A stretch of DNA of 39,176 bases from Synergistaceae bacterium (GTDB lineage: Bacteria; Synergistota; Synergistia; Synergistales; Aminobacteriaceae), in contig JAISQE010000066.1 in NCBI GenBank assembly GCA_031274425.1, forward strand, positions 1 through 39,176, given 5' to 3'. The notes below the pieces were generated by a model. That model was not told where the DNA came from. It saw only the letters and a program-made list of their open reading frames with translations, and ran no database searches. The position numbers were made by a program, and so were the translations under genes. Positions 1,601 through 39,144 of the stretch are shown here, piece by piece. Position 1 is the first letter of the stretch. The number at the start of each line of letters is the position of its first letter.

Positions 1601-4600
1601 TTACGCTTCGAATGTTTTCAGGAGCGAGTCTTTATGGGGGTTTTCGTAAAACAGAACCTCGGCCAGATGTCGCAAAAGATTTTTCTCGGCCTTTTGCGAC
1701 AGCTTGACACTCAACAGGATATTCTCCAGCACCGCGACCATCGATTCTTCGACGAGCTTAGCATCGAATTCATCCACTTTCAGTTTTTTGCAAGAATTCA
1801 TCTGATCGACAGCGTTCGCCTTCGCGTATCTGTGGAAGAAAGCGATGTATGGAGACTGCTTGTCGGTGATATGGGAAACCTCGGCGGCCATAGCAACCGC
1901 GTCGCATGTTTCCCCGAACCAGGCGTCGATGAAAAACCGGTGCAACCGGATGCACCGGTCGCAGCAACCGGGGAAAGATTCGTTCAATGTACCGAAGAGA
2001 AGGTTCGCGTAGTGGATTACATAACAGGCACGCCGCAAATCGTCGTCGACGCGAAACTCCCTCGCAAGTAGAACGTAAAATTGTTCCTTATATTTCTCTA
2101 ACGCGCCAGTCTCGCCCGTCATCATGATTATCAGCGCACCCATGACGCCCAGGTATGTCTTCTCCGAATAGCGCCCGAAATCTTCCTTCGCATACGCCTC
2201 GGCGATGCCGTCCATTTTTTCGAAGCCCGGATAGCGGGCAAACACGTGGGAATGTTCGGCATGAAACGGTTTCATATGCGCCCGTATCTCGTCGTTCGTG
2301 ACATTTTTTAAATTGCCTTTGGATTGCGCCACCTGCACGAGAAAAGCCTTGTCAGCGCCTTCCCGGTGTATCACGGCCTGCCCGACTTCCAGCAAACAAA
2401 GCTCGCGGCTTTGCGCCTCCGTCAAGTTCATGGTGCCACCCACGTAATCACGATCATCCTGTGCGAGAGTTCGGTGGATGAATTTGATGTTGGTGTTTTT
2501 GACAACATCCGGGGTCAGTTTTGTCGGTATCTGGTCCACGATGATAACGCCCTGCCCGTATTCGCGGATTTCCGAGATCACGTTGGTGAAGGTCTCGACG
2601 GCTTTGCCGCGACTGTTGCCAACCTCGGGGGAGACGAATTCGGGGGTGCGCCGAAGCAGTCTGTGGGCCTCTTCTATCAGCAGGACATGGTTCAACGGGC
2701 TTCCGACGCCTCCGAAGTTTTCTCTGTATTGGTATATCGCGGACAGGATGAGCCCCATCATGAAGCACTTTTCGTCATCGTCGCCGATATTTTTCAGCTC
2801 CAGGACGACATGCCTGTTCAACAGCGTCGCTATGGGGGTTGACCTCTGAGTGTTGAGCATCAGCCTCTTGCTGCCGGTCAGGAGACTCGACAGCCTTGCC
2901 TGTAGCGCGGCCTGTATGTTCATCGTCTGTTCCTGGGCGTAGGCCTTGCGCTTTACGATGGGCTCGATCTTATCGAAAAGGTCCTGCAAGGTTGGTAGGT
3001 AATCGAAAAATTCGTCGCCGTGCAAGTCCTTTAGGTAACGATTTGTGGACGTGGCGAGGTCCCACCCTTTGTCTCTGTAGATTTCGATGATCGCCGCTTC
3101 CAGAATATAGGGCATCGACGCGTACATGGGAAACGCGGCGTTGAAGACGGCCTTGATCGAGTCGATGTGCGTCAGCAGCTCGCCGCCCGGTGAAAACTCG
3201 AAGGGGTTGATTCGGAAAGGGGAGACCGTTTCACTGCCCAGTGTGAAGACCTGCAGGTCAGGCATGAAACCCAATATCTGCCGATACTCCGTCTTCGCCG
3301 GCTCGACGACCATAAAGGGCAGGTCCAGGTTGCGCAACAGGCTGATGCAGGTGTTGGTTTTCCCCGAGCCCGTGACGCCACAGACAAAGGCATGTTTTTG
3401 GAAAAGGCCTCTCGGAATCACGTAAGGCATGTCGTCCATAGCCGTCCGCTTGTGAACCACTTTCCCGACGGTGATGTCGTCGCCCGACGGCGACGGGACG
3501 TAGTTGATCCCGAACGGCGTCGCCTCACGGATCGTCACCCCCTGCACCTCCTGCCTGGGGACGTTCATGATGATCGACAGCTCTTCCGTGTTCAGGGGCG
3601 TACTCACGCCTCCCATTATTTCTCCAAAAGGATGTCCCAGCTCAGCCCGTTGGATCTCTTTCCAGGCTTTGTCGAGGTCTCTTTTTGAAAAATCGGTGGG
3701 ACACTGTCTAATTTCTTCAAGCATTTTGGCGGATTCTTTGCCTCCCTTGCCGAGGTTTTTGAGAAGGTCGGCGATGTCCATGCCGATAGAGGTCGCGTAG
3801 TTTTTCATCTTCTGCGCCAAGGGCAACGCCTCCTGTACGTTTTTATATTCTTCGCCGTACAGAAAAAGATTGTACTTGGGATTATTGAAATTATAAAGAT
3901 ATTTCGCTACCGCCTCGGGATTCACCTCAATGGTGCGTATCGGCTCCCAGTAGGTGGCGTCCCCAGAAAACGCGGCGCGCAGCAAACCCTGCGCCCGCAG
4001 TTGAGTGTACCGATTGTTGGTCAGGAGGTATACGCCCACGTTCCAAAACCCCAGATTCTTCCCGGCCTGCAACCTTTCAATGTAGGTATCACAAAGTTTT
4101 TCGCAGTATTCAGCCGTTTTGTTGAGCATCTCCTGCGTGACGGCCTGGCTCCGGTTCCATCCACGCGCGTATCCTCCCTGCCCTCCCATACCCAAAGTTC
4201 TTCCGATAGTATTGGCAACCGAGCTGGTATTTGCAATCGAACGTGTAACCGCAGTCGAAAGCGTTCTCGCCACGGAGCGGGTGAACGATTCAGTGCGCGA
4301 TAAAGGGCTTCCGGTAAAATATGCAGCCAGACTTCCAACGGCACCACCAAGCACTGCACCGAGCATACTTCCTGCAGGCCCACCAATAACCCCTATCATA
4401 GCTCCAAGCTTTGTGCCGAGAGCTGTTCCAATCGCTACACCTCCAACAGTACCTGCGGCACCTGCGGCAGTCATAACACCCCCTGATTCCATGTAATTCG
4501 CTCCGTTTGTATCGGCAGTCGAATCGGTTGTGGCGTCACTTGTTGTCGTCGCCTCGGATTCCGTCCTGGCCGTGGAGTCGGTCGTCGCCGTATTGTTCGC

Positions 4601-5410
4601 CAACATTCCGAACATACCGACGTTGACCGTATCGGAGGAACCTTTCATCTTCTGAACCGTTGCTTTGACCTGAGAGTGTATGGAGGTCCCCAGGTCAAAC
4701 AGGTTTTTGATGATCGCGTCGATTTCGTAAAGCGGGATAGGTTCAGCGATGGTAACCAGGCTGTATTCCTCGCCGCGCATCCCCTCGATGAAGCGGTCGA
4801 TACCTTGCACGTAGGGTCCCTGCGGGTCTTTGAGGCGCAGGGAGGGAATACCCGGAAACGAGCGGACGTTTTCATACTCTAGCATCGGTGCGAGGATATC
4901 GTCGAAAATTTCTTCGGAAGAAAGCGGGCTCATTTTTACGCCCAAAAAATTGCCGTGAAGTGTCTGCCGCAACACCTCCGCGTACTCATGTGTGCTGATG
5001 TTCGACGGAGAATCGATTCTTTTCGATAGACCGTAGTAGAGGGAAGTTTTGTCTTTCGTACTGCGGATCACCGAGACGACGTTTTGGGAATCGTCCTTCA
5101 TCGCCGCCAGAACGTTCTGCATATTGAGCAGATGAAGTCCTTCCCGCGACTCGCCCTCGTGGCTGACCTCTTGGATCTTCATCATCCGCAAGTGGGTTCG
5201 ATAATCGTAGGCTCCATCCACAGAATTTGTCGCCAACTCGAGCCGGTCGACGTCGGCGATATCCAGGTATCTTCTTTCCAGAGAAAATAGAAGCACCTCG
5301 TCAAAAGGCGGCAGCATTTGCTTCTGTTCGCTGTCCGATAAAAGTAAATTCTTATCCATCAAAATACGCCCCAATCCTGTGAATTCCTGAATGAATATAG
5401 CCGTTGACAT
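1601..5410 (-). CDS. HerA/VirB4-like DUF87 ATPase with embedded glycine zipper
   Basis: This 1269-residue protein is a RecA-fold ATPase of the HerA-FtsK/VirB4 class, motors that pump DNA or protein. Walker A GVTGSGKT lies near residues 677-684, preceded by a short 'GLFQKHAFV' strand. Walker B HVLLIEEAHRLL is near 905-916, and a downstream FIHRTLAQDDRDYVG segment fits the arginine-finger region. The N-terminal 250 residues resemble the accessory half of conjugative ATPases. Unusually, residues 310-367 form a Gly/Ala-rich zipper (GxxxG spacing), flanked by Ser/Thr-rich stretches at 273-300 and 369-405; this could insert in a membrane or drive assembly. The C-terminal 250 residues are helical with a CCDRC cluster and are unassigned. 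The start at 5410 has no good ribosome-binding site; Met18 (5359) is an alternative. The toxin gene follows directly. Confidence 0.8.
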   Translation of the reverse strand: MSTAIFIQEFTGLGRILMDKNLLLSDSEQKQMLPPFDEVLLFSLERRYLDIADVDRLELATNSVDGAYDYRTHLRMMKIQEVSHEGESREGLHLLNMQNVLAAMKDDSQNVVSVIRSTKDKTSLYYGLSKRIDSPSNISTHEYAEVLRQTLHGNFLGVKMSPLSSEEIFDDILAPMLEYENVRSFPGIPSLRLKDPQGPYVQGIDRFIEGMRGEEYSLVTIAEPIPLYEIDAIIKNLFDLGTSIHSQVKATVQKMKGSSDTVNVGMFGMLANNTATTDSTARTESEATTTSDATTDSTADTNGANYMESGGVMTAAGAAGTVGGVAIGTALGTKLGAMIGVIGGPAGSMLGAVLGGAVGSLAAYFTGSPLSRTESFTRSVARTLSTAVTRSIANTSSVANTIGRTLGMGGQGGYARGWNRSQAVTQEMLNKTAEYCEKLCDTYIERLQAGKNLGFWNVGVYLLTNNRYTQLRAQGLLRAAFSGDATYWEPIRTIEVNPEAVAKYLYNFNNPKYNLFLYGEEYKNVQEALPLAQKMKNYATSIGMDIADLLKNLGKGGKESAKMLEEIRQCPTDFSKRDLDKAWKEIQRAELGHPFGEIMGGVSTPLNTEELSIIMNVPRQEVQGVTIREATPFGINYVPSPSGDDITVGKVVHKRTAMDDMPYVIPRGLFQKHAFVCGVTGSGKTNTCISLLRNLDLPFMVVEPAKTEYRQILGFMPDLQVFTLGSETVSPFRINPFEFSPGGELLTHIDSIKAVFNAAFPMYASMPYILEAAIIEIYRDKGWDLATSTNRYLKDLHGDEFFDYLPTLQDLFDKIEPIVKRKAYAQEQTMNIQAALQARLSSLLTGSKRLMLNTQRSTPIATLLNRHVVLELKNIGDDDEKCFMMGLILSAIYQYRENFGGVGSPLNHVLLIEEAHRLLRRTPEFVSPEVGNSRGKAVETFTNVISEIREYGQGVIIVDQIPTKLTPDVVKNTNIKFIHRTLAQDDRDYVGGTMNLTEAQSRELCLLEVGQAVIHREGADKAFLVQVAQSKGNLKNVTNDEIRAHMKPFHAEHSHVFARYPGFEKMDGIAEAYAKEDFGRYSEKTYLGVMGALIIMMTGETGALEKYKEQFYVLLAREFRVDDDLRRACYVIHYANLLFGTLNESFPGCCDRCIRLHRFFIDAWFGETCDAVAMAAEVSHITDKQSPYIAFFHRYAKANAVDQMNSCKKLKVDEFDAKLVEESMVAVLENILLSVKLSQKAEKNLLRHLAEVLFYENPHKDSLLKTFEA

Positions 5411-5548
5411 TAAGAAATAGCATAAAGTAGCGACGTAAAGCTGTAATATCGCTTGTTTTCAGCTATTCTAACTTTAAGCAGACGACCGGCAAAGTATGAG
5501 CCGTGTCGATCGCTTAAGGGCGCAGCTTAGGCCTTTTACTTTGATTCA

Positions 5549-5576
5549 CTATAACCATGATTTATATTACCGACAA
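5549..5576 (-). promoter_or_regulatory. Possible internal promoter ahead of the HerA-like gene
   Basis: The 216-bp gap between the Hsp70-Sel1 gene and the HerA-like gene is the longest inside this operon. On the minus strand it contains TTGTCG (5576-5571), 16 bp, then TTATAG (5554-5549), a moderate match to a sigma-70 promoter. It would let the ATPase-toxin-immunity part be expressed apart from the Hsp70-GTPase part. The match is weak and nothing else supports it. Confidence 0.25.
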
Positions 5577-5626
5577 ACTATCCTGCTTGTCATGAGTTCT
5601 CTGCAAATCGCCACACCGCCAAATGT

Positions 5627-7303
5627 TCAGCGCAAATCTTTTATCTCCGTTAAGCGTTCTTTCGCTCGTTTCTCGCCTGCTTCCGCAGCCTTCTGATACC
5701 ACTCCCGCGCCTGCTCGTAATCCTGTTCCACTCCCCTACCCCAATCGTACATGCGACCCAACAAATACTGCGCTTCCGCATTCCCCTGCTCCGCCGCTTT
5801 GCGATACGATTCCACCGCTTCAGGGTAATTTCGCTGATTATAATAAATGTCTCCTGACTTGAGCTGGGCCGCAGCGTCGTCTTCCTGTTCTACTGTTTGC
5901 CGCTCTTCTGCCGTCACCTGAGGCTCGATGTTTTCGTTTTGAACTTCCACGTCCACGGAAGGAGTCTTCAGCTTTTGAAAATAGACATAACCTCCACCTG
6001 CGCACAAAAGTGCGATAATAATGACAATCGAGGACCACCACTTTTTTCCCAACTTCTTTTTCTCTCTCGCACGTTTGTCATGCGTCGACCGTGTGAAGGC
6101 GTGAGATTGTTGCTGTTTCAGCTCAGAGTGCGATGAAGCTGCGCCTTCCGAGCGAATGGTTTCGGAAGCCATACGAGAAGACTGCCCTCGGCCATAGAGC
6201 GCCAAACCTTTTGCGATAACCTCGACGGGATTGGCGCTGGTTACTATTTTGCTTCTGGGGAACAATGCCCTGATCCTGTCGGCGACATAATACAGCCGCG
6301 ACGAACCACCCGCGATAATGACATGGTCAATTTGCTTCGCCTCGAGTGCTGCGCCATTGAAGGCGTCATAAACGGGATTTTCCAGTTGATTGATGAATGA
6401 GCCGCAAAGCTCTTCAAATAGTTGCTTCGGGAGTGTGAGATTGTACGAATCCCGTCTCGAAAACAACCTGGGAATAGTCCTCTCCGCAAGGTCCCTGCCG
6501 TCGCCCACGGATACCGAGAGTTCCTCTTTGATCAGTCTCGCGTAGCGCTCTATCGTTTTTATGTCTTTATCTCCGAGAACCGCGGAGCCGGCATCCATCT
6601 CGCGGATAAAGTGATCCCGTAGCCGTTCGTCGAAATCTTTGCCTCCCAACCCGGCCATTCCGGCGACAGCCAGGACTTTGGGAGTTCCGCAGAGAGTTCC
6701 ATTCGCATCGGGAGCGACCTCTTCGATCGCCACGTCCGTCGTGCCTCCGCCGAAGTCGTAAACGAGAATATTTTGAGGTTTTTTCAAAGGAATATCCCCT
6801 CGAAAGTAGTAATAGTAAATGACGCCAAATGGCTCGTCGCAGCATGAGACATTAGGGAATCCAGCCTCCTGCGCGATGTTGACAATGACGCGCCGTTGGA
6901 CTTCGTTCCACGCGGCAGGGCAGCCTATGGTGCAGTAGAGGTCTCCGATTTCTTTCAGATTGGTGACGTTGAAATAATTTTTTTCGATTTTTTGACGTAA
7001 ATGTTTCAGGAAAAGCAACGCCAGCGTTTCTGGCCTGTACTCTTTAAAAGAGGATCGGAATATCTTCCCGGTACCAATGGCCACTTTGAAATTGTAAAAA
7101 GTCTCCTGAGGAGCTTCATAAATTTTCTCCAAAGCCCTTTCGCCAAAAAACACAACATTGTCCTCGGCATCGAGGCGTAAAGCCGTGTCCACAGTGTTTT
7201 TTCCGTCTATTTCGACGACCTGCGGCTCGTACCTCGATTCTTCCTTGATCATCGTCACGACCGTCTGCGTCGTCCCGAAATCAATCCCCAGGAATGTTTT
7301 CAT
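5627..7303 (-). CDS. Membrane-anchored Hsp70-like ATPase with C-terminal Sel1 repeats
   Basis: This 558-residue protein has a full Hsp70/actin-fold ATPase domain (residues 1-370): phosphate-1 loop GIDFGTTQT at 6-14, YDFGGGTTD at 182-190 and AGGSSRLYYV at 331-340. The usual DnaK substrate-binding domain is absent. Instead there is a Lys/Arg-rich linker (RAREKKKLGKK, 411-421), one membrane helix at 424-441, and two Sel1/TPR-like helical repeats at about 478-550. By the positive-inside rule the ATPase is cytoplasmic and the repeats extracytoplasmic. The ATG at 7303 has an AAGGAGG site and follows the upstream gene by 3 nt. It is a paralogue of the Hsp70-like gene at 11707-13146. Domain calls are clear; its role as a regulator or energiser of the neighbouring GTPase/HerA machinery is inference. 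Confidence 0.85.
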   Translation of the reverse strand: MKTFLGIDFGTTQTVVTMIKEESRYEPQVVEIDGKNTVDTALRLDAEDNVVFFGERALEKIYEAPQETFYNFKVAIGTGKIFRSSFKEYRPETLALLFLKHLRQKIEKNYFNVTNLKEIGDLYCTIGCPAAWNEVQRRVIVNIAQEAGFPNVSCCDEPFGVIYYYYFRGDIPLKKPQNILVYDFGGGTTDVAIEEVAPDANGTLCGTPKVLAVAGMAGLGGKDFDERLRDHFIREMDAGSAVLGDKDIKTIERYARLIKEELSVSVGDGRDLAERTIPRLFSRRDSYNLTLPKQLFEELCGSFINQLENPVYDAFNGAALEAKQIDHVIIAGGSSRLYYVADRIRALFPRSKIVTSANPVEVIAKGLALYGRGQSSRMASETIRSEGAASSHSELKQQQSHAFTRSTHDKRAREKKKLGKKWWSSIVIIIALLCAGGGYVYFQKLKTPSVDVEVQNENIEPQVTAEERQTVEQEDDAAAQLKSGDIYYNQRNYPEAVESYRKAAEQGNAEAQYLLGRMYDWGRGVEQDYEQAREWYQKAAEAGEKRAKERLTEIKDLR

Positions 7304-7306
7304 GCC

Positions 7307-8842
7307 TTATTGCCCTCCTTTCTCGGTAAACGCATCAAGCAATTCTTTAGCCAAAGCCTGAATATAGTCTTTTTTATCATCTGAAAGAACGGCGTTTGCA
7401 AGATGAAAATCCCATCTATTTCCGGTCTTGCCCTGATAGAGTCCAGCCTGATAGAATCCAGTTTGGTCTCTGGAGAGAAGAACAGGAGACGTCCATAGCC
7501 TTCTCAGATCCACCCGATTACGAATATAAAGCCTAGTGGGCTTAGAATCTACTTCAGTATGGTCATACACCACTACTTTGTAACATTTTTCCAAAGGAGT
7601 CTTGAAGAAAGCTAGATAGCTCCCTTCTTTATAAGAAGGTGATAAATCCTCAAGAAGGCGATTTTCGTCAATTGTTGTGTTTCTTGTCTTTCCTTCTGTT
7701 GAAGCTTGAAAATATTTTTCCAGTTTATCCTTAAATGCATCCATAGAAGTTTTTATCGCATTGCCATCTTTGAATTGAAAAGAAAAATCATAGCCTCCTC
7801 CTGGTTGATGAAATTCCCCCGTAGAGTCGTTAAAAAAAGCCTCTACATTCTTCTTGAACTTATCTGCGTCAATATATATGCCGTCAAGTACAAGCTTTAT
7901 TTCATCATCGATTTCGAAATTTATTTCATCATTGGAATCTTCTCTGTATATCTGCTCCAGAGACTGAAATTTAAGATCTGCATCTATGGGCTTGACTAGA
8001 TAAAACGTAAGCAATCCATCCAAAGTACCATTATTTTTTTCCTTAATTTTATTGATCATGTTTCGTGCCGCTTCCTCCCGCTTTGCATCAGCGCCACTAC
8101 TTCCGTTGCCTCCCGACAAACGCCCTTGACTTCTATCCCCGGCGAACAGGAACACAATTGCGGCGAGAATAGCCACTGCTATAGCCGCGACGAGCAACTT
8201 GGAGATGCGTTTCTGTTTTTTAAAAACTCCGCCAAGACGCGGCGACGGTTCGGAAAGGGAGGGCTCTTTCAAGCATTCCTGTATTCTACCATCGACAAAA
8301 AATGCCGCGGTGTTCTTTCCAGGCCACACAAGCTTATTGAAGCTGTCCTCACCCCAAAATTTCGGCATCAGTACACTCGCGTCATTCTTCACTGTAAGAT
8401 CAAGTTCAAGAGAATCCGGGCGAGTGTCCAACGTTTTCCTGTCTTCCTTACGTTTAGCGATGTCTTCAATAGAGTTTTGCGCCCACAACTTCTTCGCCAC
8501 TTCCGCAGGATTGTGTTTCCGACAAAGATTATCTGGAACAAGCGCCGCAACCAAAGAAATATTAAGTCGTCTAAGCTTATCTTGATACGGAAATATAAAA
8601 CCAAGCAATACACGGCTTCCAGACCAGGGCAACAACACCAAAGCCCCATTTCCAACAAGAGATATCGATTTGGAGTCCAACAAATTAGGCGATAGGGAAA
8701 AGCTACCCGTCGTTTCGCGATATTCATTATCCCATTTAAGCCATTCTTTTTGATCCGGCTCGCGAGATACGAACTTGACGCCCCAGTCCTCCCCTGCAAC
8801 GCCACGTTCTCCCGAAGTAAACACAAAATACGAGATAGACAT
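7307..8842 (-). CDS. Unrecognised bitopic membrane protein of the Hsp70-GTPase operon
   Basis: I do not recognise this 511-residue protein. Residues 1-205 form a soluble domain starting MSISYFVFTSGERGV. A basic patch (FKKQKRISK, 207-215) precedes one membrane helix (about 215-234). The remaining 275 residues are mixed alpha/beta and acidic, with no repeats or motif I can name. The positive-inside rule puts the N-domain in the cytoplasm and the C-domain outside. The first residues faintly recall GTPase-associated proteins described for other NTPase conflict systems, but I would not assign it on that basis. The coding sequence is clearly AT-richer than genes further right. It lies between the GTPase gene (37 nt upstream) and an Hsp70 gene (3 nt downstream), so it is almost certainly a structural part of the same complex. 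Confidence 0.75.
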   Translation of the reverse strand: MSISYFVFTSGERGVAGEDWGVKFVSREPDQKEWLKWDNEYRETTGSFSLSPNLLDSKSISLVGNGALVLLPWSGSRVLLGFIFPYQDKLRRLNISLVAALVPDNLCRKHNPAEVAKKLWAQNSIEDIAKRKEDRKTLDTRPDSLELDLTVKNDASVLMPKFWGEDSFNKLVWPGKNTAAFFVDGRIQECLKEPSLSEPSPRLGGVFKKQKRISKLLVAAIAVAILAAIVFLFAGDRSQGRLSGGNGSSGADAKREEAARNMINKIKEKNNGTLDGLLTFYLVKPIDADLKFQSLEQIYREDSNDEINFEIDDEIKLVLDGIYIDADKFKKNVEAFFNDSTGEFHQPGGGYDFSFQFKDGNAIKTSMDAFKDKLEKYFQASTEGKTRNTTIDENRLLEDLSPSYKEGSYLAFFKTPLEKCYKVVVYDHTEVDSKPTRLYIRNRVDLRRLWTSPVLLSRDQTGFYQAGLYQGKTGNRWDFHLANAVLSDDKKDYIQALAKELLDAFTEKGGQ

Positions 8843-8879
8843 GAGTCTCCTCCTTATAGGTGATTTTCCGGCCGTGCTC

Positions 8880-11555
8880 TCATTCCCACGGACAATAAGG
8901 AATTTTCTTCTTGGGATCCAGCCGGATTGTCAGTGTGTTGGATTTATCGCGCAGAGTGCCTGTCAATTTTTTGTACCCAAAAAGACCCGTCGCGGATACT
9001 ATCGCTTCGAAAACTTCGTCGTTGGACATAGGGTCTTCTTCTATCCCAGAGAATGTGAGCTCTGTCTGCACATCCCACTTAAACTCATATTTCCAATTAA
9101 AAATAGGCCGTGGCTTGTCTTTAACGGTATTGGTTCGTGTAAAACTTTCCTTCCCACGATCTACTTTGATGAACATATCGGGAGCATCTCCAAAAAAAGC
9201 CTCAGCCTCGAAATTCCCCTCTACAATGACCAGTGAAGAATCAATTCCGTTTTTGATATGTTCGAGGAATTCTATGACCGCGTTGACCTCCCCTTGCTTT
9301 TCAACCTGAGATGTCCAGCGACTTTTGAAACCCCGCAATGTAGCTAGAACACCTTCAATGTCGTTCGAGGTCATGGTGTTTCGTATACTTTCAAATTTGT
9401 TCTTGCAATCGGCAAAGTTGTACTCGCAGAGTTGCTCAAGCTCTGTCTTTTTTCTTTCTTCAATCGCCTTTCGCATGTCAAGTGCATTCGAAAGGCTGTC
9501 AAGCACAGGCAACGAAGACAGGGTTTTTAAGTTATCCTCTATATCCTGTTTTACAAGAGTATAGTCCTTTTCATTAATTTTTTTAGCCCATTCAGCTTTC
9601 AAAGTGTCGACATCACGTTCCACAATTCTGAGCAGGGCATCCTCAATAGGACGTGTAACCTCAGCAGAATACCGTTTTTGCACGTCTTTGATCTCATTTA
9701 CCAAAGGCGTGAGCGCGTCAATCCTGTTTGTTGCCTCGATTACGTGAACCACACGAGCGGTGTTTTCTCGTGCTAAAGCATCTTGACGATTTCCGAGCCT
9801 GATTTTTTGCTCATCGGGCATCGTGGGATAACGCGATAGTACCTCCTGAAGTTTTTTTTCATCCTCGCCGGAAACCACGGAATCCACGATGCGCGCGTAA
9901 TATTGATTCAGAGCTTCGCCGAGGTGCTCCAGAACCTCCGGAGGCAGATCAGAGCCTCTTTGGCGATCTAAAAGCATCTCAATAGCCTCTTCAGGAGTTC
10001 TTGTCTGTGCTTCCCGCAACCATTCGTCACATCGCTTTGTCCACGCCGCGGTCAGTTCGTTGGCAAACTTTTCTTTTTGCCCCTCCAGAAACGACACGAG
10101 TCCGGCCGGCATTCTAGGGTGGGATACAAGCAATTCCATATCCAACAGCGCGGTTTTAAGCCCTTCAACCGTCGCCTCGCGCGAGACGGCGTTTGCCCAC
10201 AGCCGAGTATACTCGTCGACTTTTACGGCAAATTCATCACGCCAGCTTTCCGGAATCTGAGAAACAAGATCGAGCGCCTTTTTGAGGATGCCCAAAATGT
10301 CCTGGGGTGTCTCCAGTTCTGTCCCTTCTTCTTTCGAACGCGAAAGCATCATTTGTCCGATAGCGTAGTAGGCCTCAACCGCTTTGACGTTGTTGTAATG
10401 CCTTGGGTCGGCTTTGTAAAAATCTGGCTTGTCAAGGTATTGATGGACTTTATCAGCGACGGCGTCAAACCGCTGCGTAGCCGCCGTGTTCGGAATCTTG
10501 TTGACGTCTACGCCCTCGACGTCCGAACGCAACGCATCGTACATCGCTTTTTCATACTGCACGTAGATACCCTCCCGCGTTGCTTCCACCGCCGCGTTTA
10601 CCCGTAAAAACGGGGGAAGGAGCCAGCTTGGCGGAAGGAGCCTTCCGGGAAAGGAATTGACGCTCTGCAGGGCATTATCGTAATGAGAAAGAGCAACCTC
10701 CCTGTTGACCGTTTCCAAAACGCTGTTCCAGCGAGATTGGTCGAACCACCACAACCCCCCGACGGTTACGAGATAAGACAACATCGCGATAACCGCTGCA
10801 AGCCCCAATAAAACGTGACGATGACGATTGACGGAGCCCTTCACTGTTTTCAGAAGTTCTTCCATAGATTCGAGTACATTTTCGGGTTGGTACTCTTCCG
10901 GCAGAGAGTTGGAATCTTTCCACTTCCCTAGGGATATGACCTTGTAAAAGCGAACGTTACGCCCCGTTTTAAATACGTAATCCTGACGGCTTTCCTCGGC
11001 CGTTCGGCGCAATCCTTTGATTGCGTTTTTTAAATCTTCTAATGTTACGTTGGGGATAAGGTCGCCTTTCGTGAAAAGGAACCAGACGGGCACGTCTTCC
11101 CGTGCCGCGCCTTTTTGTTTTTTGCGCAGGTGATCGATGGCCGCGGTGAAGGCTGCATTGTCCTGATCGCATTTCTCCCGATGATAAACCAAATCCTCGC
11201 CGGAGATGAAGAAAAGCACCCCATTTGCGGATTCCAGATCGGGGGTGATCTTCTGCTCAACCCACTGATCGACGTCCTGCGTATAGCCTCCAGGAATGTC
11301 GTGCAGAATGACCCGCATCTCGAGCGAGGGAACGTTGAAACTGATATCCGTTCTTTCCGCAGTTCCCATGACTGGAAGACGTTCTTCGAAAAGCGTGGTG
11401 GTAATGCGCGAAATTTCCTTTATTGAATCGGGGGTAGCAGGAGAGACAGAAAAATTTCCGCTTCCCTGATTGATAACCGAGTTAAAATATGAACCGAAGA
11501 AAACGGTTTTCCCGCTCCCCGTTGCGCCCATTACCGCAATTTTATACTCTTTCAT
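8880..11555 (-). CDS. Bitopic TRAFAC-type GTPase with large extracytoplasmic region
   Basis: This 891-residue protein begins with a GTPase domain: P-loop GATGSGKT at 10-17, switch II DIPG at 86-89 and the guanine-specificity motif TKGD at 162-165. A single membrane helix follows at about 248-270 after a basic SVNRHRH stretch, then about 620 mostly helical residues that should lie in the periplasm. The layout (N-terminal P-loop NTPase, membrane helix, long helical periplasmic part) recalls TssM/IcmF of type VI secretion, but TssM has extra helices before the NTPase and no clear sequence match is visible, so I do not call it TssM. The ATG at 11555 follows a GAGGCATTTCCCAGTA stretch. It is second in the operon, 150 nt after an Hsp70-like gene. 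GTPase assignment is firm; function in an envelope complex is inferred. Confidence 0.82.
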   Translation of the reverse strand: MKEYKIAVMGATGSGKTVFFGSYFNSVINQGSGNFSVSPATPDSIKEISRITTTLFEERLPVMGTAERTDISFNVPSLEMRVILHDIPGGYTQDVDQWVEQKITPDLESANGVLFFISGEDLVYHREKCDQDNAAFTAAIDHLRKKQKGAAREDVPVWFLFTKGDLIPNVTLEDLKNAIKGLRRTAEESRQDYVFKTGRNVRFYKVISLGKWKDSNSLPEEYQPENVLESMEELLKTVKGSVNRHRHVLLGLAAVIAMLSYLVTVGGLWWFDQSRWNSVLETVNREVALSHYDNALQSVNSFPGRLLPPSWLLPPFLRVNAAVEATREGIYVQYEKAMYDALRSDVEGVDVNKIPNTAATQRFDAVADKVHQYLDKPDFYKADPRHYNNVKAVEAYYAIGQMMLSRSKEEGTELETPQDILGILKKALDLVSQIPESWRDEFAVKVDEYTRLWANAVSREATVEGLKTALLDMELLVSHPRMPAGLVSFLEGQKEKFANELTAAWTKRCDEWLREAQTRTPEEAIEMLLDRQRGSDLPPEVLEHLGEALNQYYARIVDSVVSGEDEKKLQEVLSRYPTMPDEQKIRLGNRQDALARENTARVVHVIEATNRIDALTPLVNEIKDVQKRYSAEVTRPIEDALLRIVERDVDTLKAEWAKKINEKDYTLVKQDIEDNLKTLSSLPVLDSLSNALDMRKAIEERKKTELEQLCEYNFADCKNKFESIRNTMTSNDIEGVLATLRGFKSRWTSQVEKQGEVNAVIEFLEHIKNGIDSSLVIVEGNFEAEAFFGDAPDMFIKVDRGKESFTRTNTVKDKPRPIFNWKYEFKWDVQTELTFSGIEEDPMSNDEVFEAIVSATGLFGYKKLTGTLRDKSNTLTIRLDPKKKIPYCPWE

Positions 11556-11706
11556 TACTGGGAAATGCCTCCTTTGAATTCACCTCGGCTTACCAGGCAT
11601 TGCAAATTCTAAAGTCTCTTAGTTCAATATGATCTCATGCTTTTGGAGATAAACGAAACTTATACTTTGTCGTTGCTCAGTTGAGAAAAAGATAGCATTA
11701 TTACCA

Positions 11707-13146
11707 TCACCGCCAGATCCACGAGATCCAACGCCACGAATCATTAGGTTCAGCTTGGGGGACACTTTCTTGCTTGATCCGTTCTCGTTCAGCTTGAAGA
11801 ACGGCACGTTCCTTTTCGACCTGAACCGAGAAACTGTTCATAAGAAAATAGGTTCCTCCAAAGACGATCACTAGAATAGCAACAATCAGCAACCTTTTTC
11901 GACTCCAAAACCTTTCCTGACCTTTCGGCAGCGCGCTTTCTCCGCGCGACAAGGCTCTTTCATCAGCAAATTTTGTATTAGCCTTTTTTTCCTGCCGAAA
12001 TCCACCAGCCTTTACCCCAGCGATAAGTGACCTCCCGTAGAGTGCCAGCCCTTTGGCGATGACCTCGACGGGGTTCGGGCTTGTTATGATATTGCTCTTG
12101 GGAAACACCGCCTTGATCCTGCTTTTCACGTAATACAGCCGCGAAGAGCCGCCGGCAATGATAACGTCGTCTACCTGAGACGCATCGAACGCCGCGATGT
12201 TGAAGACATCGTATACCGGCTCTTCCAAGCGTTCGATAAAGAGCCCACAAACGCGCTCGAACTCGTTTTTCGACAGGGCCAGCCTGTGCGAGCTGCGTCT
12301 CGAAAAAAGCATGGGCACGACCTTTTCCACCAGATTGACGCCATCTTCCACGGAGGTCGAGAGCGTCTCTTTGAGCAGCTTCGAGTAATACTCCAATGTC
12401 CTCGAATCTTTAGCCCCAAACGTCGCGGCGGTGGCGCCCATCCCCTCTAAAAAATAATCCCTCAACCTTTCGTCGAAATTTTTCCCCCCAAGGTCGGGTA
12501 TTCCGGCCGCGGCCAGCACTTTGGGCTCTCCAAGCCCGGAGTCGCTAGAGGCCGGGGAAATTTCTTCAATGGCGACGTCCGTCGTTCCTCCCCCGAAATC
12601 GTAGACAAGTATATTTCGGGTTTTCGTGAGAGAAATTTCCCCTCTGGAGTGGTAATAGTATATGACGCCGAATGGCTCGTCGTAACAGGACACGTTTGGG
12701 AAGCCGGCCTCTTCCGTCAGACCGATAAGCGTACTCCTCTGCTTTTCGTTCCAGGAGGCCGGGCATCCGATGGTGCAATAGATATCTTTTTCCGCCGTTA
12801 AATTGCCCACGTTGAAGTATTTTTTTTCGAGCTTTTGACGCAGATGTCTCAGAAAAAGAAGCGTCAGGGTTTCTGGCGTGTATTCTTTGCTGGAGGAACA
12901 AAATGTTTCTCCCGAGCCGATGGCCGGTTTGAAATTGTAAAACGTATCCTCCGGAGCTTCGTGAATCCTGTCCAAAGCGTTCCGAGCAAAAAGCAACACG
13001 TTGTCCCCGGCGTCGAGGCGCAACGCGGTATCCACGGTTTTATGCCCATCTATCTCGACGATCTCCGGTTCGTACTTCGAGCCCTCCCGGATCATTGTGA
13101 CGATTGTCTGAGTCGTTCCGAAGTCGATACCCAAAAAAGTTTTCAC
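11707..13146 (-). CDS. Membrane-anchored Hsp70-like ATPase, short tail (first gene of the operon)
   Basis: This is a paralogue of the Hsp70-Sel1 protein at 5627-7303, with the same ATPase signatures: GIDFGTTQT near the N-terminus, YDFGGGTTD at about 182-190 and AGGSSRLYYV at about 331-340. It has no substrate-binding domain. A basic SRKRLL patch precedes one membrane helix (about 419-436), followed by only about 43 residues, a charged helix ending in Trp-rich WRWISWIWR. I chose the GTG at 13146 (479 residues) because GAGGAG lies 9 nt upstream and the start then aligns with the paralogue's MKTFLGIDFG; an in-frame ATG at 13155 abuts the same site and is less likely. It opens the operon, facing away from the binding-protein gene across an AT-rich region. 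The two Hsp70s probably arose by duplication and diverged in their tails. Confidence 0.85.
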   Translation of the reverse strand: MKTFLGIDFGTTQTIVTMIREGSKYEPEIVEIDGHKTVDTALRLDAGDNVLLFARNALDRIHEAPEDTFYNFKPAIGSGETFCSSSKEYTPETLTLLFLRHLRQKLEKKYFNVGNLTAEKDIYCTIGCPASWNEKQRSTLIGLTEEAGFPNVSCYDEPFGVIYYYHSRGEISLTKTRNILVYDFGGGTTDVAIEEISPASSDSGLGEPKVLAAAGIPDLGGKNFDERLRDYFLEGMGATAATFGAKDSRTLEYYSKLLKETLSTSVEDGVNLVEKVVPMLFSRRSSHRLALSKNEFERVCGLFIERLEEPVYDVFNIAAFDASQVDDVIIAGGSSRLYYVKSRIKAVFPKSNIITSPNPVEVIAKGLALYGRSLIAGVKAGGFRQEKKANTKFADERALSRGESALPKGQERFWSRKRLLIVAILVIVFGGTYFLMNSFSVQVEKERAVLQAERERIKQESVPQAEPNDSWRWISWIWR

Positions 13147-13264
13147 GCTGTCCATCTCCTCTTGTCCCCAGCATGAGATTCTTGGCAATAGTTTACATCA
13201 CTTCGCCCTGTTTCAGGTTCTTTTTATGGTCGAGAAATTTTTATTAATAAATTTTATTTTAATG

Positions 13265-33990: not shown

Positions 33991-34830
33991 ATGAAACGTG
34001 TTTTGTGTGTTTTGACTGCGGCGTGTGTTCTCGCTTTGTGCGGTATGGTTCAGGCGGCCGAATCGGAGGATCCCGGCTCGGTGGTGGTTCAGAAGGACAG
34101 GAACCTTCTGGATTGGACGCAGAGTTATATCGAGTCGACGGGAATGGCCGTCGCGCCCACCGGGACGAAGGGGGCCCAGGCCAAGGCCCTCGCGCGGCGA
34201 GGAGCCATCGTGGACCTTCAGCGCAATCTTTTGGAGTTCATGGGAGGAGTTCAGATCGACTCCCGCACCACCATGGACGATTTCATGGCGAGCGATCGGG
34301 TACGCCAAGAGATACATGGGGTCATCAAAAACGTCGAACTCCTCGACGGCACTTGGGACGGGGAGTCCTACACCGTCTCCGGCCGCATCCGGCTGCCCCA
34401 TCTGAGGGTTGTCGTCGCCGCGAACGTCCCGCCCAACCCCGCCAACGTCGCCGTGGTGGAAGAAGAAAAGAAAACTCCGCCCGCGAAGAGGACGGGGGGA
34501 AGATTTACGGGCCTGATCATCGACGTCCGCCACCTTCCGCTGGTTCCCGCTATGACCTTCAACGTTTTCGACACGAAGGGCAGGGCGGTTTACGGCATCG
34601 AGTTCGTGGAGCGGGAGCATTATCTGCAGTCGGGACTCTGCGCCTATTACAACAACATCAACTACGCGAAGGGCGAAGTTCACGTGGCCTCGAACCCCAT
34701 CGTGGCCACGGCGGTTCGGCTGTCCTCCGGCAACGTCGATATCGTCATCTCCGACAACGACGCGGCAAAAGTGCGCGGCAGCTCCTACGACTTCCGCCGG
34801 GAAGGCAAAGTCATCATCGTCAGCAGGTAA
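33991..34830 (+). CDS. LPP20/FlgP-family exported protein, long form
   Basis: This 279-residue protein has a signal peptide (KRVLCVLTAACVLALCGMVQ, cleavage probably at VQA-AES). No good lipobox is present, so it may not be lipidated, unlike classical LPP20/FlgP. Residues 40-135 are the LPP20 domain: YIESTGMAVAP, then AKALARRGAIVDLQRNLLEF, GGVQIDSRTTMDDFM and a closing YTVSGRIRLPHLR. A Lys/Pro linker leads to a second domain from about 165 (TGLIIDVRHLPLVPAMTFNV, then KGRAVYGIEF). In Vibrio FlgP lines the outer-membrane H-ring. A GGGAGG site precedes the ATG. It opens the six-gene exported cluster; the next gene starts 4 nt after its stop. The gene at 38689 is a shorter paralogue. Confidence 0.82.
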   Translation: MKRVLCVLTAACVLALCGMVQAAESEDPGSVVVQKDRNLLDWTQSYIESTGMAVAPTGTKGAQAKALARRGAIVDLQRNLLEFMGGVQIDSRTTMDDFMASDRVRQEIHGVIKNVELLDGTWDGESYTVSGRIRLPHLRVVVAANVPPNPANVAVVEEEKKTPPAKRTGGRFTGLIIDVRHLPLVPAMTFNVFDTKGRAVYGIEFVEREHYLQSGLCAYYNNINYAKGEVHVASNPIVATAVRLSSGNVDIVISDNDAAKVRGSSYDFRREGKVIIVSR

Positions 34831-34834
34831 GGGC

Positions 34835-36001
34835 ATGAGGAGAAGCCGCCTGTTTTTTTCTTTTCTTCTTTTTGTGTGCTTTTTGATGTGCGCGACGTTG
34901 CCCGTTTCCGACGCTCACGCCGCCGCGCCCCAGGGCGACCTGATCTCCGTCGAGGCGGAGGGTTTTGCTCCCATTGGAAACGGGGGCAAAAACGCCGCGC
35001 GAGAGGCCGCTAAGCGCTCCGCTCAGCGCGACGCCCTGGAAAAAGCAATGGGCGTTTATGTGGAGGGCATCACTCAGGTTCAGAATTACGAGGTCGTCAA
35101 GGACAAAGTTTTTTCTCAGACCACGGGGATCGTGAAAGACTTCGACGTCATTCGGGAGTGGGAAGACAAGGACGGGGTGTTCTACATCTCCGCGCTTTGC
35201 AAGGTTTCGGCCGCCGCCCTCGACGGCGTGTTGGGCCCCGCGGCGATCGACGCCCTGGGGAATCCGCGGATCATGGTTCTGATCGACGAAAAAATCGGAG
35301 AGACCTACCCGTTCATCTCCACCACCGAGGGCGAGCTTCTGAAGGTCTTCGAAAAAGCTGGATATCAGCTTGCGGATCCCTCGCAGTCGGACGCGTTGAA
35401 AAATATCGACCTCGACGCGGCCCGGCGCTCCTCAGACCCTGAGCTGCTGCGGGAGATCGCAAGGACTTTTCGCGCCGAGGTCCTGATTTCAGGAAAGGCG
35501 TACGGCAGTTCTTTCACCCGTCAAAAAATCAGCGGCGTCGATATCTATGGGGTTCGCAGCACGGTGCAGCTACGGGCGGTTTTGAGCAACTCCGCTTATA
35601 TGCTGGGATCGGACGCGATAGAGGAGAAGACGAAAGGAATTTCCGAGGAAGACGGCGCGATCAAAGGTTTTCAAGCGGCCGCTCCCAAAGCCGGGAAAAG
35701 CCTGGTGCACAAGGTCGCCTACGCCCTGATCTCCGGTTCCGCGGGCGGTATCCCTGGCAGGACGGTCAACGTCAAAATCATGGACATTTCTTTTAAAGAC
35801 GGAAAGGTATTGGAGGACTTACTGCAAGGGGTCGACGGCGTTACGGCGGTTTACCACCGCACCTACCGCAACAAGACGGTGGAATTTGACGTCGTCTCCG
35901 ACAAAACGTCGGATGAACTCGCCTTTTTACTCTCGGAACATGGCGTCGACGTCCAGGACGTCACATCCGCCACCGTCGAAGGCCAGCATGCGGATAGTTG
36001 A
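34835..36001 (+). CDS. FlgT-like exported protein
   Basis: This 388-residue protein has a signal peptide (SFLLFVCFLMCATLPVSDA, cleavage at AHA-AAP). Residues about 35-130 resemble the FlgT N-terminal domain, an LPP20-like fold: AAREAAKRSAQRDALEKAMG, then VYVEGITQVQNYEVVKDKVF, then a FDVIREWEDKDGVFYISALC strand pair. A middle part from about 140 (PRIMVLIDEKIGETYPFIST, then GYQLADPSQ) fits the TolB-N-like FlgT middle domain. FlgT in Vibrio helps assemble the flagellar H-ring in the periplasm. The ATG at 34835 lies 4 nt after the preceding stop with only a weak ribosome-binding site, implying coupling. No flagellar genes are in view. Family call by eye, moderately sure. Confidence 0.7.
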   Translation: MRRSRLFFSFLLFVCFLMCATLPVSDAHAAAPQGDLISVEAEGFAPIGNGGKNAAREAAKRSAQRDALEKAMGVYVEGITQVQNYEVVKDKVFSQTTGIVKDFDVIREWEDKDGVFYISALCKVSAAALDGVLGPAAIDALGNPRIMVLIDEKIGETYPFISTTEGELLKVFEKAGYQLADPSQSDALKNIDLDAARRSSDPELLREIARTFRAEVLISGKAYGSSFTRQKISGVDIYGVRSTVQLRAVLSNSAYMLGSDAIEEKTKGISEEDGAIKGFQAAAPKAGKSLVHKVAYALISGSAGGIPGRTVNVKIMDISFKDGKVLEDLLQGVDGVTAVYHRTYRNKTVEFDVVSDKTSDELAFLLSEHGVDVQDVTSATVEGQHADS

Positions 36002-36038
36002 ATGTGAGTCGTATTTGATTCGAAAGGAAGGTTGAACG

Positions 36039-36584
36039 GTGAACAAACGCAGGTGTGGTTCGCGTATGTTAAAGGCGGCGTGTTTTGTTTTCGCCCTGGC
36101 GTTTTTGGGAGTCGTGTGTTCCGCAATCACCGTCGAGGCGGCGATTCCCCAAAAAGGATCCGTTGCCGTGCTGGTAAAAGGCCCGTCGGAGCAGCACGCC
36201 GCGTCGACAGAATCGATCATTACGGGACAGTTGCTCATGAATGGCTATAAGATCGTCGACCCCAAGGTGCTGAATCGCATCCGGCGCGACAAGGCGGCGG
36301 TGTTGGCCCTTGAGGGGAACGTGGATGCCATCATGAAGCTCGGTCGGACGTATGGGTTCAGCACGCTCGTCTCGGCTAGGGTGGAGGCGGGCGCGCCGGT
36401 GCTCAACGAATTCAAGCTCTATACCGGTACGGCTTCCGCGGCGGTCATGGCCACGGCCTCCAACGGCTCGCGGTTGTACGCCGACACGGTTTCGGGCAAG
36501 CAGGTGGGCTACACGCCCGACGAGGCAAGGCAGAAGTCCATAGAGGCCGCGGCGAAACTGGCCGTTGAACGAATGACGAAGTAG
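36039..36584 (+). CDS. Small exported protein with CsgG/FlgT-middle-like fold
   Basis: This 181-residue protein starts at a GTG with GGAAGG 7 nt upstream and has a signal peptide (MLKAACFVFALAFLGVVCSA, cleavage near VEA-AIP). The mature part begins GSVAVLVKGPSEQHAAS, followed by NGYKIVDPKVLNRIRRDKAA, a pattern like the TolB-N/FlgT-middle domain, in which a strand and helix are followed by a GYxxVD strand. The end (DEARQKSIEAAAKLAVERMT) is an amphipathic helix, also typical of CsgG/FlgT-related proteins. It lies between the FlgT-like gene and a CsgG-like gene, 12 bp before the latter. No family name is certain. Confidence 0.6.
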   Translation: MNKRRCGSRMLKAACFVFALAFLGVVCSAITVEAAIPQKGSVAVLVKGPSEQHAASTESIITGQLLMNGYKIVDPKVLNRIRRDKAAVLALEGNVDAIMKLGRTYGFSTLVSARVEAGAPVLNEFKLYTGTASAAVMATASNGSRLYADTVSGKQVGYTPDEARQKSIEAAAKLAVERMTK

Positions 36585-36596
36585 AGGCGATAGATA

Positions 36597-37211
36597 ATGA
36601 AACCGTTGAAGCTGTGCGTCAAGGGAATGCTGGTCGTTTTGTTCTGTCTCGCCGCGACGGTCGGGGCGGAGGCGAGACCTCGGCTGTCGGTTCGCGCTTT
36701 CGACAACAAAACGAGCGGCAATGTTCCCGCTTCGGCCATCACGGAGATGATGACGACGGAACTGTACAACTCCGGGCTCTTCAGCCTGATGGAGCGAGAG
36801 AAGCTCGACTATGTGGCGGAGGAAATCCGTCTGGGCCAATCGGGCCTGATGGACCCGTCGACCGCCCCGGAACTGGGCAAGATCAAAAGCGCCCAGTATA
36901 CCATGACCGGCGCGGTTACGGAGTACTTCTACAACGCGTCGGGGGGCGTCGCGCCCATTCCCAGGGTCGGCGGCGCGGCGCTCATTTCCAACACGGCTTA
37001 CGTGACGTTGGATATTCGAATCGTCGACACCACCACTGGCGAGGTGGTGTACGCCGCGGCGGAGCAGGGAGCCTCGAATCAGACTCTGGGGGGCGCCGTC
37101 ACCAGGTACGGCGGTTTTGCCTCCGGGAAAATCGGCGGAATTCTCGCCTCCGCGACGCGTAGGTCCGTGGAAAAACACGTGGAGAGCATGAGACGATACC
37201 AGTGGGAATAA
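36597..37211 (+). CDS. CsgG-family exported protein
   Basis: This 204-residue protein has a signal peptide (LCVKGMLVVLFCLAATVGAE, cleavage at AEA-RPR) and one CsgG domain: RLSVRAFDNKTSGNVPA, then MMTTELYNSGLFSLMEREKL, GLMDPSTAPELGKIKSAQYT, MTGAVTEY and TLDIRIVDTTTGEVVYA. CsgG forms the outer-membrane pore for curli export and related proteins form other outer-membrane rings. No lipobox cysteine is present, so lipidation is doubtful, which differs from CsgG. No csgA/B-like subunit is nearby. The next gene encodes a longer CsgG relative 24 bp downstream; the two share the LMDPSTA-type signature, so they could co-assemble. Confidence 0.82.
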   Translation: MKPLKLCVKGMLVVLFCLAATVGAEARPRLSVRAFDNKTSGNVPASAITEMMTTELYNSGLFSLMEREKLDYVAEEIRLGQSGLMDPSTAPELGKIKSAQYTMTGAVTEYFYNASGGVAPIPRVGGAALISNTAYVTLDIRIVDTTTGEVVYAAAEQGASNQTLGGAVTRYGGFASGKIGGILASATRRSVEKHVESMRRYQWE

Positions 37212-37235
37212 CCTATTAATTATGGAGGAATATCA

Positions 37236-38654
37236 ATGAAACAGCGGGAAAGGATTTTTAAGGCGTTTTTGTTTTGCGCGCTGCTTGCCTCGTTTGCCGG
37301 AATCGCCGAAGCGGCGGATAAAATCCGGCTCGGGGTGCTGGAGTTCGAGAGTAAGGCGGCGGGGGTGTCGAATCAACAAGCACAGATCATCACGGATATT
37401 TTCACCCGCACCCTCACCAGCTCCAAGAGCATAGCGGTTTACGAGCGCCTGCAGCTCCAAAAGATAGGGGAGGAACAACACCTCAACATGTCCGGGCTCG
37501 TCGACCCGAGCACCGCCGTCGAGATTGGAAGGCTTGCCGGGCTGCAGTATATTTTGTTGGGCGCGGTGACGGAACTCAGCGAGAAGGCGTCCGGTGGGGC
37601 AATCCCGCTTTTCGGCATCGGCGGGGCGATCGGCATCGGCACCCATGAGGCAAAGGCGACCATCGATATGCGGGTCATCGACGTAACCACCTCCGAGATC
37701 GTTTTGTCCCTTTCGGAAAGCGGAAGTTCTTTGGAGTCGGCGACGGCTTTCACTATCGCGGGCATCACTGGAGTGGAGGCCGAATTTGGAGGACTCAAGG
37801 CGCGCGCCATCGCGGTCGCGGCTTCCCGTTTGGGGCACGAAATCCGGGAAGAGCTGGGCGGGGAATACTCCTACGTCGTTTCAGTCAGCGGCAGCGACTA
37901 CGTCATCAACCTCGGTTCGACGATGGGCGCTAAAGAAGGGTCGCTGTACCTGGTCTACGCGGAGGGAAAGCCGATACGCGACATCGACGGCACGTTGATC
38001 GGCAAGGATAAGATCCCTCTGGCCGTGCTGAAAGTACGCGACGTGGAAAGCGGGCACAGCGTCTGCAGCGTCGCTTCTCCGAGCAAGGGAACCCTGGTTC
38101 GTCGCGGCGATAAAATCGAGCCCATTGCAGCCTCGAAATCCAAAGGCATGAAATTCGCGACGACCCGCCCCGCGGCATCCAGCGGAACCTTCGATCAGGT
38201 TTTCGGCGAAGCTGGAAGCAATGCGCCCGATACGCAGACGCTCCCCGAAGAGCCGGTTGTCGCCGAGACGCCGATAACCACGCCTTCGCGCCCAACGGAA
38301 TCCGCGTCAGCCAACACCCCGGAACAACGGCCGATAGCGGGGTTCGACCCCAACACCTCGACAGAGGCGAAGGTGATTCAGACCTACCCGATCGCCTCCG
38401 GCGAGGCGAATATCCTAGGCATCAAACACCGCAACGCCTACAACAAATACAAAAGCAACCGATTCCGAGACGCCTACGCGGAGTTCAGCGAAGCCGCGGA
38501 GTCCTACGGCGGCAACTACCTCTCGGCCTACTGGGCGGGAAGGTCGGCGCAGGGCTTGAAAAAGCAGGACGACGCCCGCACCTGGTTTGAAAGAGCGTTG
38601 GCGATCAACCCCAACTACCAGCCCGCGCAAGAGGCTTTGGGAAAGATAAAGTAG
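37236..38654 (+). CDS. CsgG domain fused to a FlgT-C-like domain and TPR repeats
   Basis: This 472-residue exported protein has a signal peptide (FLFCALLASFAGIAE, cleavage at AEA-ADK). Residues 30-200 form a CsgG domain: IRLGVLEFESKAAG, AVYERLQLQKIGEEQHLNMS, GLVDPSTAVEIGRLAGLQYI and TIDMRVIDVTTSEIVLSLSE. Residues about 208-292 (YVINLGSTMGAKEGSLYLVY, then VLKVRDVESGHSVCSV) resemble the FlgT C-terminal domain. A Pro/Thr-rich linker to about 375 leads to TPR-type repeats (DAYAEFSEAAESYGG, then ARTWFERALAINPNYQ). The fusion ties the CsgG and FlgT themes of this cluster in one chain and suggests a ring-forming scaffold with a protein-docking end. A GGAGG site precedes the ATG. The FlgT-C assignment is by eye. 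Confidence 0.78.
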   Translation: MKQRERIFKAFLFCALLASFAGIAEAADKIRLGVLEFESKAAGVSNQQAQIITDIFTRTLTSSKSIAVYERLQLQKIGEEQHLNMSGLVDPSTAVEIGRLAGLQYILLGAVTELSEKASGGAIPLFGIGGAIGIGTHEAKATIDMRVIDVTTSEIVLSLSESGSSLESATAFTIAGITGVEAEFGGLKARAIAVAASRLGHEIREELGGEYSYVVSVSGSDYVINLGSTMGAKEGSLYLVYAEGKPIRDIDGTLIGKDKIPLAVLKVRDVESGHSVCSVASPSKGTLVRRGDKIEPIAASKSKGMKFATTRPAASSGTFDQVFGEAGSNAPDTQTLPEEPVVAETPITTPSRPTESASANTPEQRPIAGFDPNTSTEAKVIQTYPIASGEANILGIKHRNAYNKYKSNRFRDAYAEFSEAAESYGGNYLSAYWAGRSAQGLKKQDDARTWFERALAINPNYQPAQEALGKIK

Positions 38655-38688
38655 GGAACGTGAAATTGGGAAAACGGAGGCGGAGTTC

Positions 38689-39144
38689 ATGAAAGCTCTT
38701 AAAATGAAGCGCATATTGGTATCTTTTCTGGCGTTGAGTTGTGTGTTATGCGGGTGGGGAGTTCTTTCCGGCGAGGCGGCCGACGGGGTCGAAAAGGAAC
38801 GCGGCCTCGTGGACTGGGGACAAAATTACATCGAGAGCACGGGGATGGCCGTTGCCCCCACAGAGTCGACGGGAGCCCAGGCCAAAGCCCTGGCGCGGCG
38901 CGGGGCCATCGTGGACCTGCAGCGCAACCTCTTGGAGGCCGTCGGCGGGGTTCAGATAGATTCCCGCACGACGGTGAATGATTTCATGGCCGAAGATCGC
39001 GTCCGTTCGGAAGTGCACGGCATCATCCAGGGCGTCGAGCTTCTCGACGGCAAGTGGGACGGGGAGTCCTACACGGTGACGGGGCGCATCCGCCTGGCTC
39101 AGCTTCGTGTGATCGTGGATTATTGCCGGGGCCTTGGACGGTGA
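38689..39144 (+). CDS. LPP20/FlgP-family exported protein, short form
   Basis: This 151-residue protein is a paralogue of the long LPP20 protein at 33991: NYIESTGMAVAPTES, AKALARRGAIVDLQRNLLEA, GGVQIDSRTTVNDFMAEDR and YTVTGRIRLAQLRVIV nearly repeat its first domain. It has a signal peptide (LVSFLALSCVLCGWGVLSGE, cleavage near GEA-ADG). It stops right after the LPP20 domain, about the size of classical FlgP, so it is probably complete and not truncated. The ATG at 38689 is preceded by GGAGGCGGAG; a second ATG at 38707 is possible. Nothing further is seen in the last 32 bases of the window. Confidence 0.8.
   Translation: MKALKMKRILVSFLALSCVLCGWGVLSGEAADGVEKERGLVDWGQNYIESTGMAVAPTESTGAQAKALARRGAIVDLQRNLLEAVGGVQIDSRTTVNDFMAEDRVRSEVHGIIQGVELLDGKWDGESYTVTGRIRLAQLRVIVDYCRGLGR

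Follow-up and report, generated by a model that had tools for sequence, protein, structure and literature searches.

A conserved cluster of FlgP-, FlgT- and CsgG-like proteins in Synergistota, probably encoding an outer-membrane ring of the flagellar motor

Outer-membrane disks of the flagellar motor have been described mainly in Proteobacteria and Campylobacterota. The H-ring is built from FlgO, FlgP and FlgT (PMC7990780); its genes have locus tags that follow one another in Colwellia as well as in Vibrio fischeri. The basal disk of Campylobacter jejuni consists of FlgP, and ring formation in this family has been linked to an insert that separates the SHS2 helix from the second strand (PMC12222027). 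For Synergistota, the literature we searched contained neither a motor structure nor anything relevant on these protein families.

The stretch of DNA analyzed here (the window) is the entire contig C89, 39,176 bases long, of a Synergistaceae genome (G000; 3.29 Mb, 93% complete). Six open reading frames on the plus strand, g1 to g6, fill positions 33991-39144, and their frames are intact. Inspection of the predicted proteins found a hydrophobic, signal-like N-terminal stretch on each of the six, so that the initial sequence-only reading of the locus as six consecutive exported proteins is upheld. Elsewhere in the window, on the minus strand at 1601-13188, there are two genes for Hsp70-domain proteins, 5627-7303 (with Sel1 repeats) and 11707-13188; interleaved with them are genes for proteins of 1269, 511 and 891 amino acids which had no Pfam match at 1e-10. 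This region looks like a multi-gene system.

The first gene of the cluster, g1 (33991..34830), codes for an exported protein with a FlgP-like N-terminal domain of the SHS2/LPP20 type (residues about 45-140) and a C-terminal domain that is related to D2 of Treponema pallidum Tp0624. Pfam searches with the single window sequences gave no match for g1 or g6, and the proposed assignment of both to the LPP20/FlgP type therefore found no support at this level; for FlgP it was borne out by profile comparison to known structures. The g1 profile, in which the window protein shares 44-85% identity with 23 homologues, matched C. jejuni FlgP (9hmf) with 3e-15 over residues 31-137, and other FlgP chains in the PDB with values of 1e-5 to 4e-3 (0.0044 for the FlgP of 8z5n). 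In this sequence alignment the g1 profile runs through the SHS2 ring-insert region of 9hmf with a gap of a single residue. The C-terminal half of g1 (residues 159-278) matched the Tp0624 structure 5jir with 0.0023, where the assignment to D2 uses the domain boundaries of PMC5104382 and a chain numbering offset inferred from the construct. With a C-terminal domain in g1 that resembles D2, the uncharacterized pair D1-D2 may consist of a FlgP-like domain and D2. A lipobox-like motif (LVSC, LASC) was present in two of 24 g1 homologues, and g1 and g6 of the window have imperfect lipoboxes. A tblastn search of g1 against plasmids gave no match.

The last gene, g6 (38689..39144), encodes a second FlgP-like protein, which duplicates the N-terminal domain of g1 and lacks the D2-like part. 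It is 76% identical to g1 at the DNA level over 295 bases and scores 206.6 bits against the g1 profile. The same short form is found in G002, G010, G011, G016 and G062, and in relatives the short FlgP-like gene either precedes g1 or follows g5. Because the short form recurs in this way, the possibility that g6 is a frameshifted or truncated gene was ruled out.

Two proteins of the cluster resemble FlgT. The exported g2 protein (34835..36001) has a FlgT_N-like domain (residues 39-109) and a CsgG/FlgT_M-like middle part (about 145-300). FlgT_N reached 23.7 bits in the window protein, below the Pfam cut-off of 28.8. Among the homologues, 35 of 39 contain FlgT_N (best 3.7e-9). With an AF2 model of g2 (pLDDT 88.9), Foldseek returned FlgT as the best match in the PDB (8z5n_0, 2.4e-12; 3w1e, 9.4e-12). 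Profiles and fold support the description of g2 as FlgT-like. In the ring insert the monomer model shows a helix (85-94) and no beta-hairpin. The C-terminal domain of g2 (residues 309-385), with the order beta-alpha-beta-beta-alpha-beta, is at most a candidate FlgT_C.

In g5 (37236..38654) a CsgG/FlgT_M domain is followed by a FlgT_C-like domain (about 212-297), a low-confidence linker and a TPR domain (about 388-470). CsgG was found in all 37 g5 homologues, FlgT_M in 17, FlgT_C (PF16538; best 2.2e-6, not detected in window g5 itself) in 14 and TPR_2 in 22, which agrees with the composition of CsgG, FlgT-C-like domain and TPRs originally read from the sequence. The AF2 model (pLDDT 83.4) matched FlgT (3w1e, 1.5e-15) and CsgG (4.9e-8) in Foldseek, with PelC also among the matches. 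The whole-chain TM-scores of g2 and g5 to FlgT were low (0.23-0.30), meaning that the likeness to FlgT lies in the domains and indicates domain kinship, not an identical protein. Searches of the PDB with the single g2 and g5 sequences (phmmer) returned almost no match, so profiles were needed. No single chain was found to unite the three FlgT domains N, M and C: FlgT_N occurred in g2 only, FlgT_M and FlgT_C in g5 homologues. The best reading of the domain matches is that the FlgT domains are divided between two proteins, g2 and g5. The genome also holds a further g5-like gene for a CsgG protein on contig C102 (L017, 4802-6118), and on contig C152 (L035, 1590-2543) a gene whose product matches nothing of g5 except the C-terminal (TPR) part.

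The CsgG domain is clear in g5 and in g4 (36597..37211), an exported single-domain protein, with 86 and 98 bits, respectively (PF03783, 97.9 for g4; cut-off 20.8); the count of two CsgG-domain proteins was thus correct. The LpoB profile matches both as well. The small exported protein g3 (36039..36584), which had been taken to be FlgT-middle-like, did not sustain this label. It had no Pfam match itself, its profile gave chance matches only in the PDB, and its 12 homologues yielded weak signals for CsgG (4/12, best 5.6e-4) and FlgO (2/12, best 0.019), so that it is best called weakly CsgG/FlgO-like. Its position in the cluster is conserved.

The two CsgG domains raise the question whether the cluster builds a pore of the CsgG type in the outer membrane, through which a surface polymer or a protein would be secreted as in the curli or Pel systems; an export pore for surface polymers had indeed been proposed. 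Apart from the bit scores, such a pore would be in line with the PelC and CsgG fold matches and with one long hairpin in the g5 model (105-124/131-149, plus one strand). However, in this model strand 154-174 runs into a helix at 185, apparently leaving a second hairpin without a return strand; by fold, FlgT outscores CsgG for g5 as well as g2; a scan for lipoboxes found none in g4 and g5 and one in only a single g5 homologue of 37; and no CsgA/E/F-like or polymer genes were recognized in the listed flanks, which were judged from the ORF starts only. On these grounds we consider a secretion pore very improbable. Curli secretion was rejected.

Across a comparison set of 188 Synergistota genomes, the order g1-g2-(small FlgP-like)-g3/g4/g5 was found in one f10 genome and in families f1, f4, f5, f6, f11 and f12. 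Here g5 lies ahead of g3 in f6, f11 and f12; the f3 genomes have the genes distributed over separate loci. The most distant families of the phylum also keep the gene order. The gene order thus recurs across the phylum beyond chance. A scan of a genome collection with g2 patterns returned Synergistota only. One contig of G062 (C6, L116) carries two clusters of different subtypes in opposite orientation. Partial or split clusters occur in some lineages (G008, G029, G149), as might be expected if the genes were remnants, coding for loosely grouped envelope proteins that do not form a conserved complex. The identities of g1 given above, an order kept from f11/f12 to f1 and the intact frames in G000 make this explanation scarcely credible.

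The cluster was initially described as lacking flagellar genes. This is true for the window and wrong for the genome, which encodes FliF (C20), FlhA (C67) and five rod-domain matches; the notion of a six-gene cluster in a flagella-less genome was thereby ruled out. Counting g2 as present at E < 1e-20, it occurred in 74 of the 129 FliF-positive genomes versus six of the 59 FliF-negative ones (p 2e-10; presence lists hand-copied from the search outputs). Four of these six have FlhA. Fretibacterium fastidiosum (G007), for example, is FliF-negative, yet FlhA and rod proteins are present, and a flagellin of this species has been reported (PMC10928219). When genomes with either FliF or FlhA were considered, g2 was found in 78 of 136, versus two of 52 without them (p 1e-12). 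In other words, 78 of the 80 genomes with g2 carry at least one of these two genes. The exceptions are G053, an assembly of 490 contigs in which the secretin known from its genus is missing too, and the MAG G186, in which the cluster is present and neither FliF, FlhA nor rod proteins were found. A secretin used as contrast gene was near-universal (177/188 genomes); most FliF-negative genomes are therefore not merely empty assemblies, a result that is silent on specificity.

The association persisted by genus, with g2 in 27 of 40 flagellated versus one of 23 other genera (p 7e-7) and a family-stratified chi2 of 22; flagellar status in these figures comes from FliF and an 11-genome FlhA search, and is not updated for two g2-negative genomes in which FlhA was found later (G155, G167). 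With the set restricted to genomes of 2.4 Mb or more, g2 was present in 42/62 versus 0/12 (p 1e-5; the counts are hand-tallied and approximate). Shared history or transfer may add to the association, as f1 and f4 members are mixed in the g2 tree. The g2 of G186 (f10) groups with f5 (69% identity), making transfer, or a binning error with a misbinned contig (C23, L115), possible for this genome.

Location does not follow this pattern. In closed or nearly closed genomes g2 lies 157 kb from FlhA (G007) or 280-870 kb from FliF (G048, G049, G115, G120). Constant occurrence with, and next to, flagellar genes had been named in the sequence-only reading as a finding that would refute a stand-alone structure; the co-occurrence is nearly constant, whereas the adjacency clearly is not there. 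Moreover, g2 is absent from 58 of the 136 flagellated genomes and is hence not needed for flagella as such.

These last observations would suit an outer-membrane scaffold or peptidoglycan-linked structure that is independent of the flagellum and kept mainly in motile lineages by chance, as would the presence of the cluster in the flagella-less G186. Proteins like LpoB, LipL46 and Tp0624 belong to the cell envelope, and both the LpoB matches of g4 and g5 and the fact that leptospiral LipL46 is the nearest named curated family of g2 point in the same direction. Yet only two of the 52 genomes without FliF and FlhA carry g2, one of them the fragmented assembly without the secretin of its genus, and the association holds by genus, by family and, as hand-tallied, among large genomes. 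We regard such an independent scaffold as unlikely. The near confinement of g2 to genomes with FliF or FlhA likewise disfavors a stand-alone polymer pore, and the term "stand-alone" is not supported for the cluster.

Since nearly all genomes with the cluster are flagellated, the most likely explanation is that the motor has a hitherto undescribed disk at the outer membrane. With a probability of roughly 0.7, the six genes specify a ring or disk of the Synergistota motor that is associated with the outer membrane; it would be an accessory like the H-ring or the basal disk, encoded away from the core flagellar genes. We infer ring formation, motor location and function of the proteins; the idea of an outer-membrane ring in a diderm outside Proteobacteria, put forward from the sequence alone, is supported by the FlgP-, FlgT- and CsgG-type family assignments. 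In such a disk, the FlgP-like g1 and g6 would assemble into rings that encircle the L/P rings, g2 and g5 as the FlgT-like members would link the disk to the LP ring, the TPR domain of g5 could make contact with the periplasmic stator side, and the CsgG/FlgO-like g3 and g4 could provide further ring layers. The disk might support the outer membrane and assist the rod in crossing it. The imperfect lipoboxes of window g1 and g6 and the helix in the ring insert of the g2 model weigh against this reading.

More tentatively, and with the chances slightly below even, we suggest an old, phylum-wide disk of FlgP-like, CsgG-like and split FlgT-like proteins whose genes lie apart from those of the flagellum, with Tp0624 D1-D2 belonging to the same FlgP-like ring family; outer-membrane disks would then reach well beyond Proteobacteria and Campylobacterota. 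The flagellar link of the cluster would bring this class of motor accessories to another diderm phylum, with a FlgT split over two genes, and would give the uncharacterized D1-D2 domains of Tp0624 a testable role. The tie to the flagellum comes from the phylogenetic profile and not from location; the gene neighborhood alone would have indicated a stand-alone system.

Compared with known systems, g2 resembles LipL46 of Leptospira, whose NCBIfam model matches residues 6-221 with 9.4e-17; but the 60.8 bits are far under the equivalog cut-off of 400 bits, and a lipobox scan of window g2 found none. With Tp0624 (5jir), g1 shares the D2-like C-terminal half, but g1 has no OmpA-like D3. D1 of Tp0624 may be FlgP-like. 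The D1-D2 pair without D3 has been reported for nearly 50 proteins from a variety of bacteria (PMC5104382). The CsgG fold of g4 and g5 is that of the curli pore, from which they differ in lacking a lipobox, g5 also in its added FlgT-like C-terminal and TPR domains and its apparently incomplete second hairpin in the model; moreover, no curli partners were recognized in the cluster flanks from the ORF starts. The Vibrio H-ring (3w1e, 8z5n) has in common with the cluster FlgP-like and FlgT-like domains and CsgG/FlgO-like proteins encoded in consecutive genes. Unlike the H-ring, the Synergistota cluster splits the FlgT domains over two proteins, one of them ending in a TPR domain, has a Tp0624-D2-like domain in g1 and no recognized true FlgO, and lies far from the core flagellar genes, its location at the motor being inferential. 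The basal disk of Campylobacter and Helicobacter is built with FlgQ and a PflA/PflB scaffold in C. jejuni, in place of which the cluster has FlgT- and CsgG-like partners. It is nevertheless this disk whose FlgP the g1 profile matches across the ring-insert region, and the TPR tail of g5 recalls, as a resemblance of type only, the C. jejuni TPR scaffold proteins PflA and PflB.
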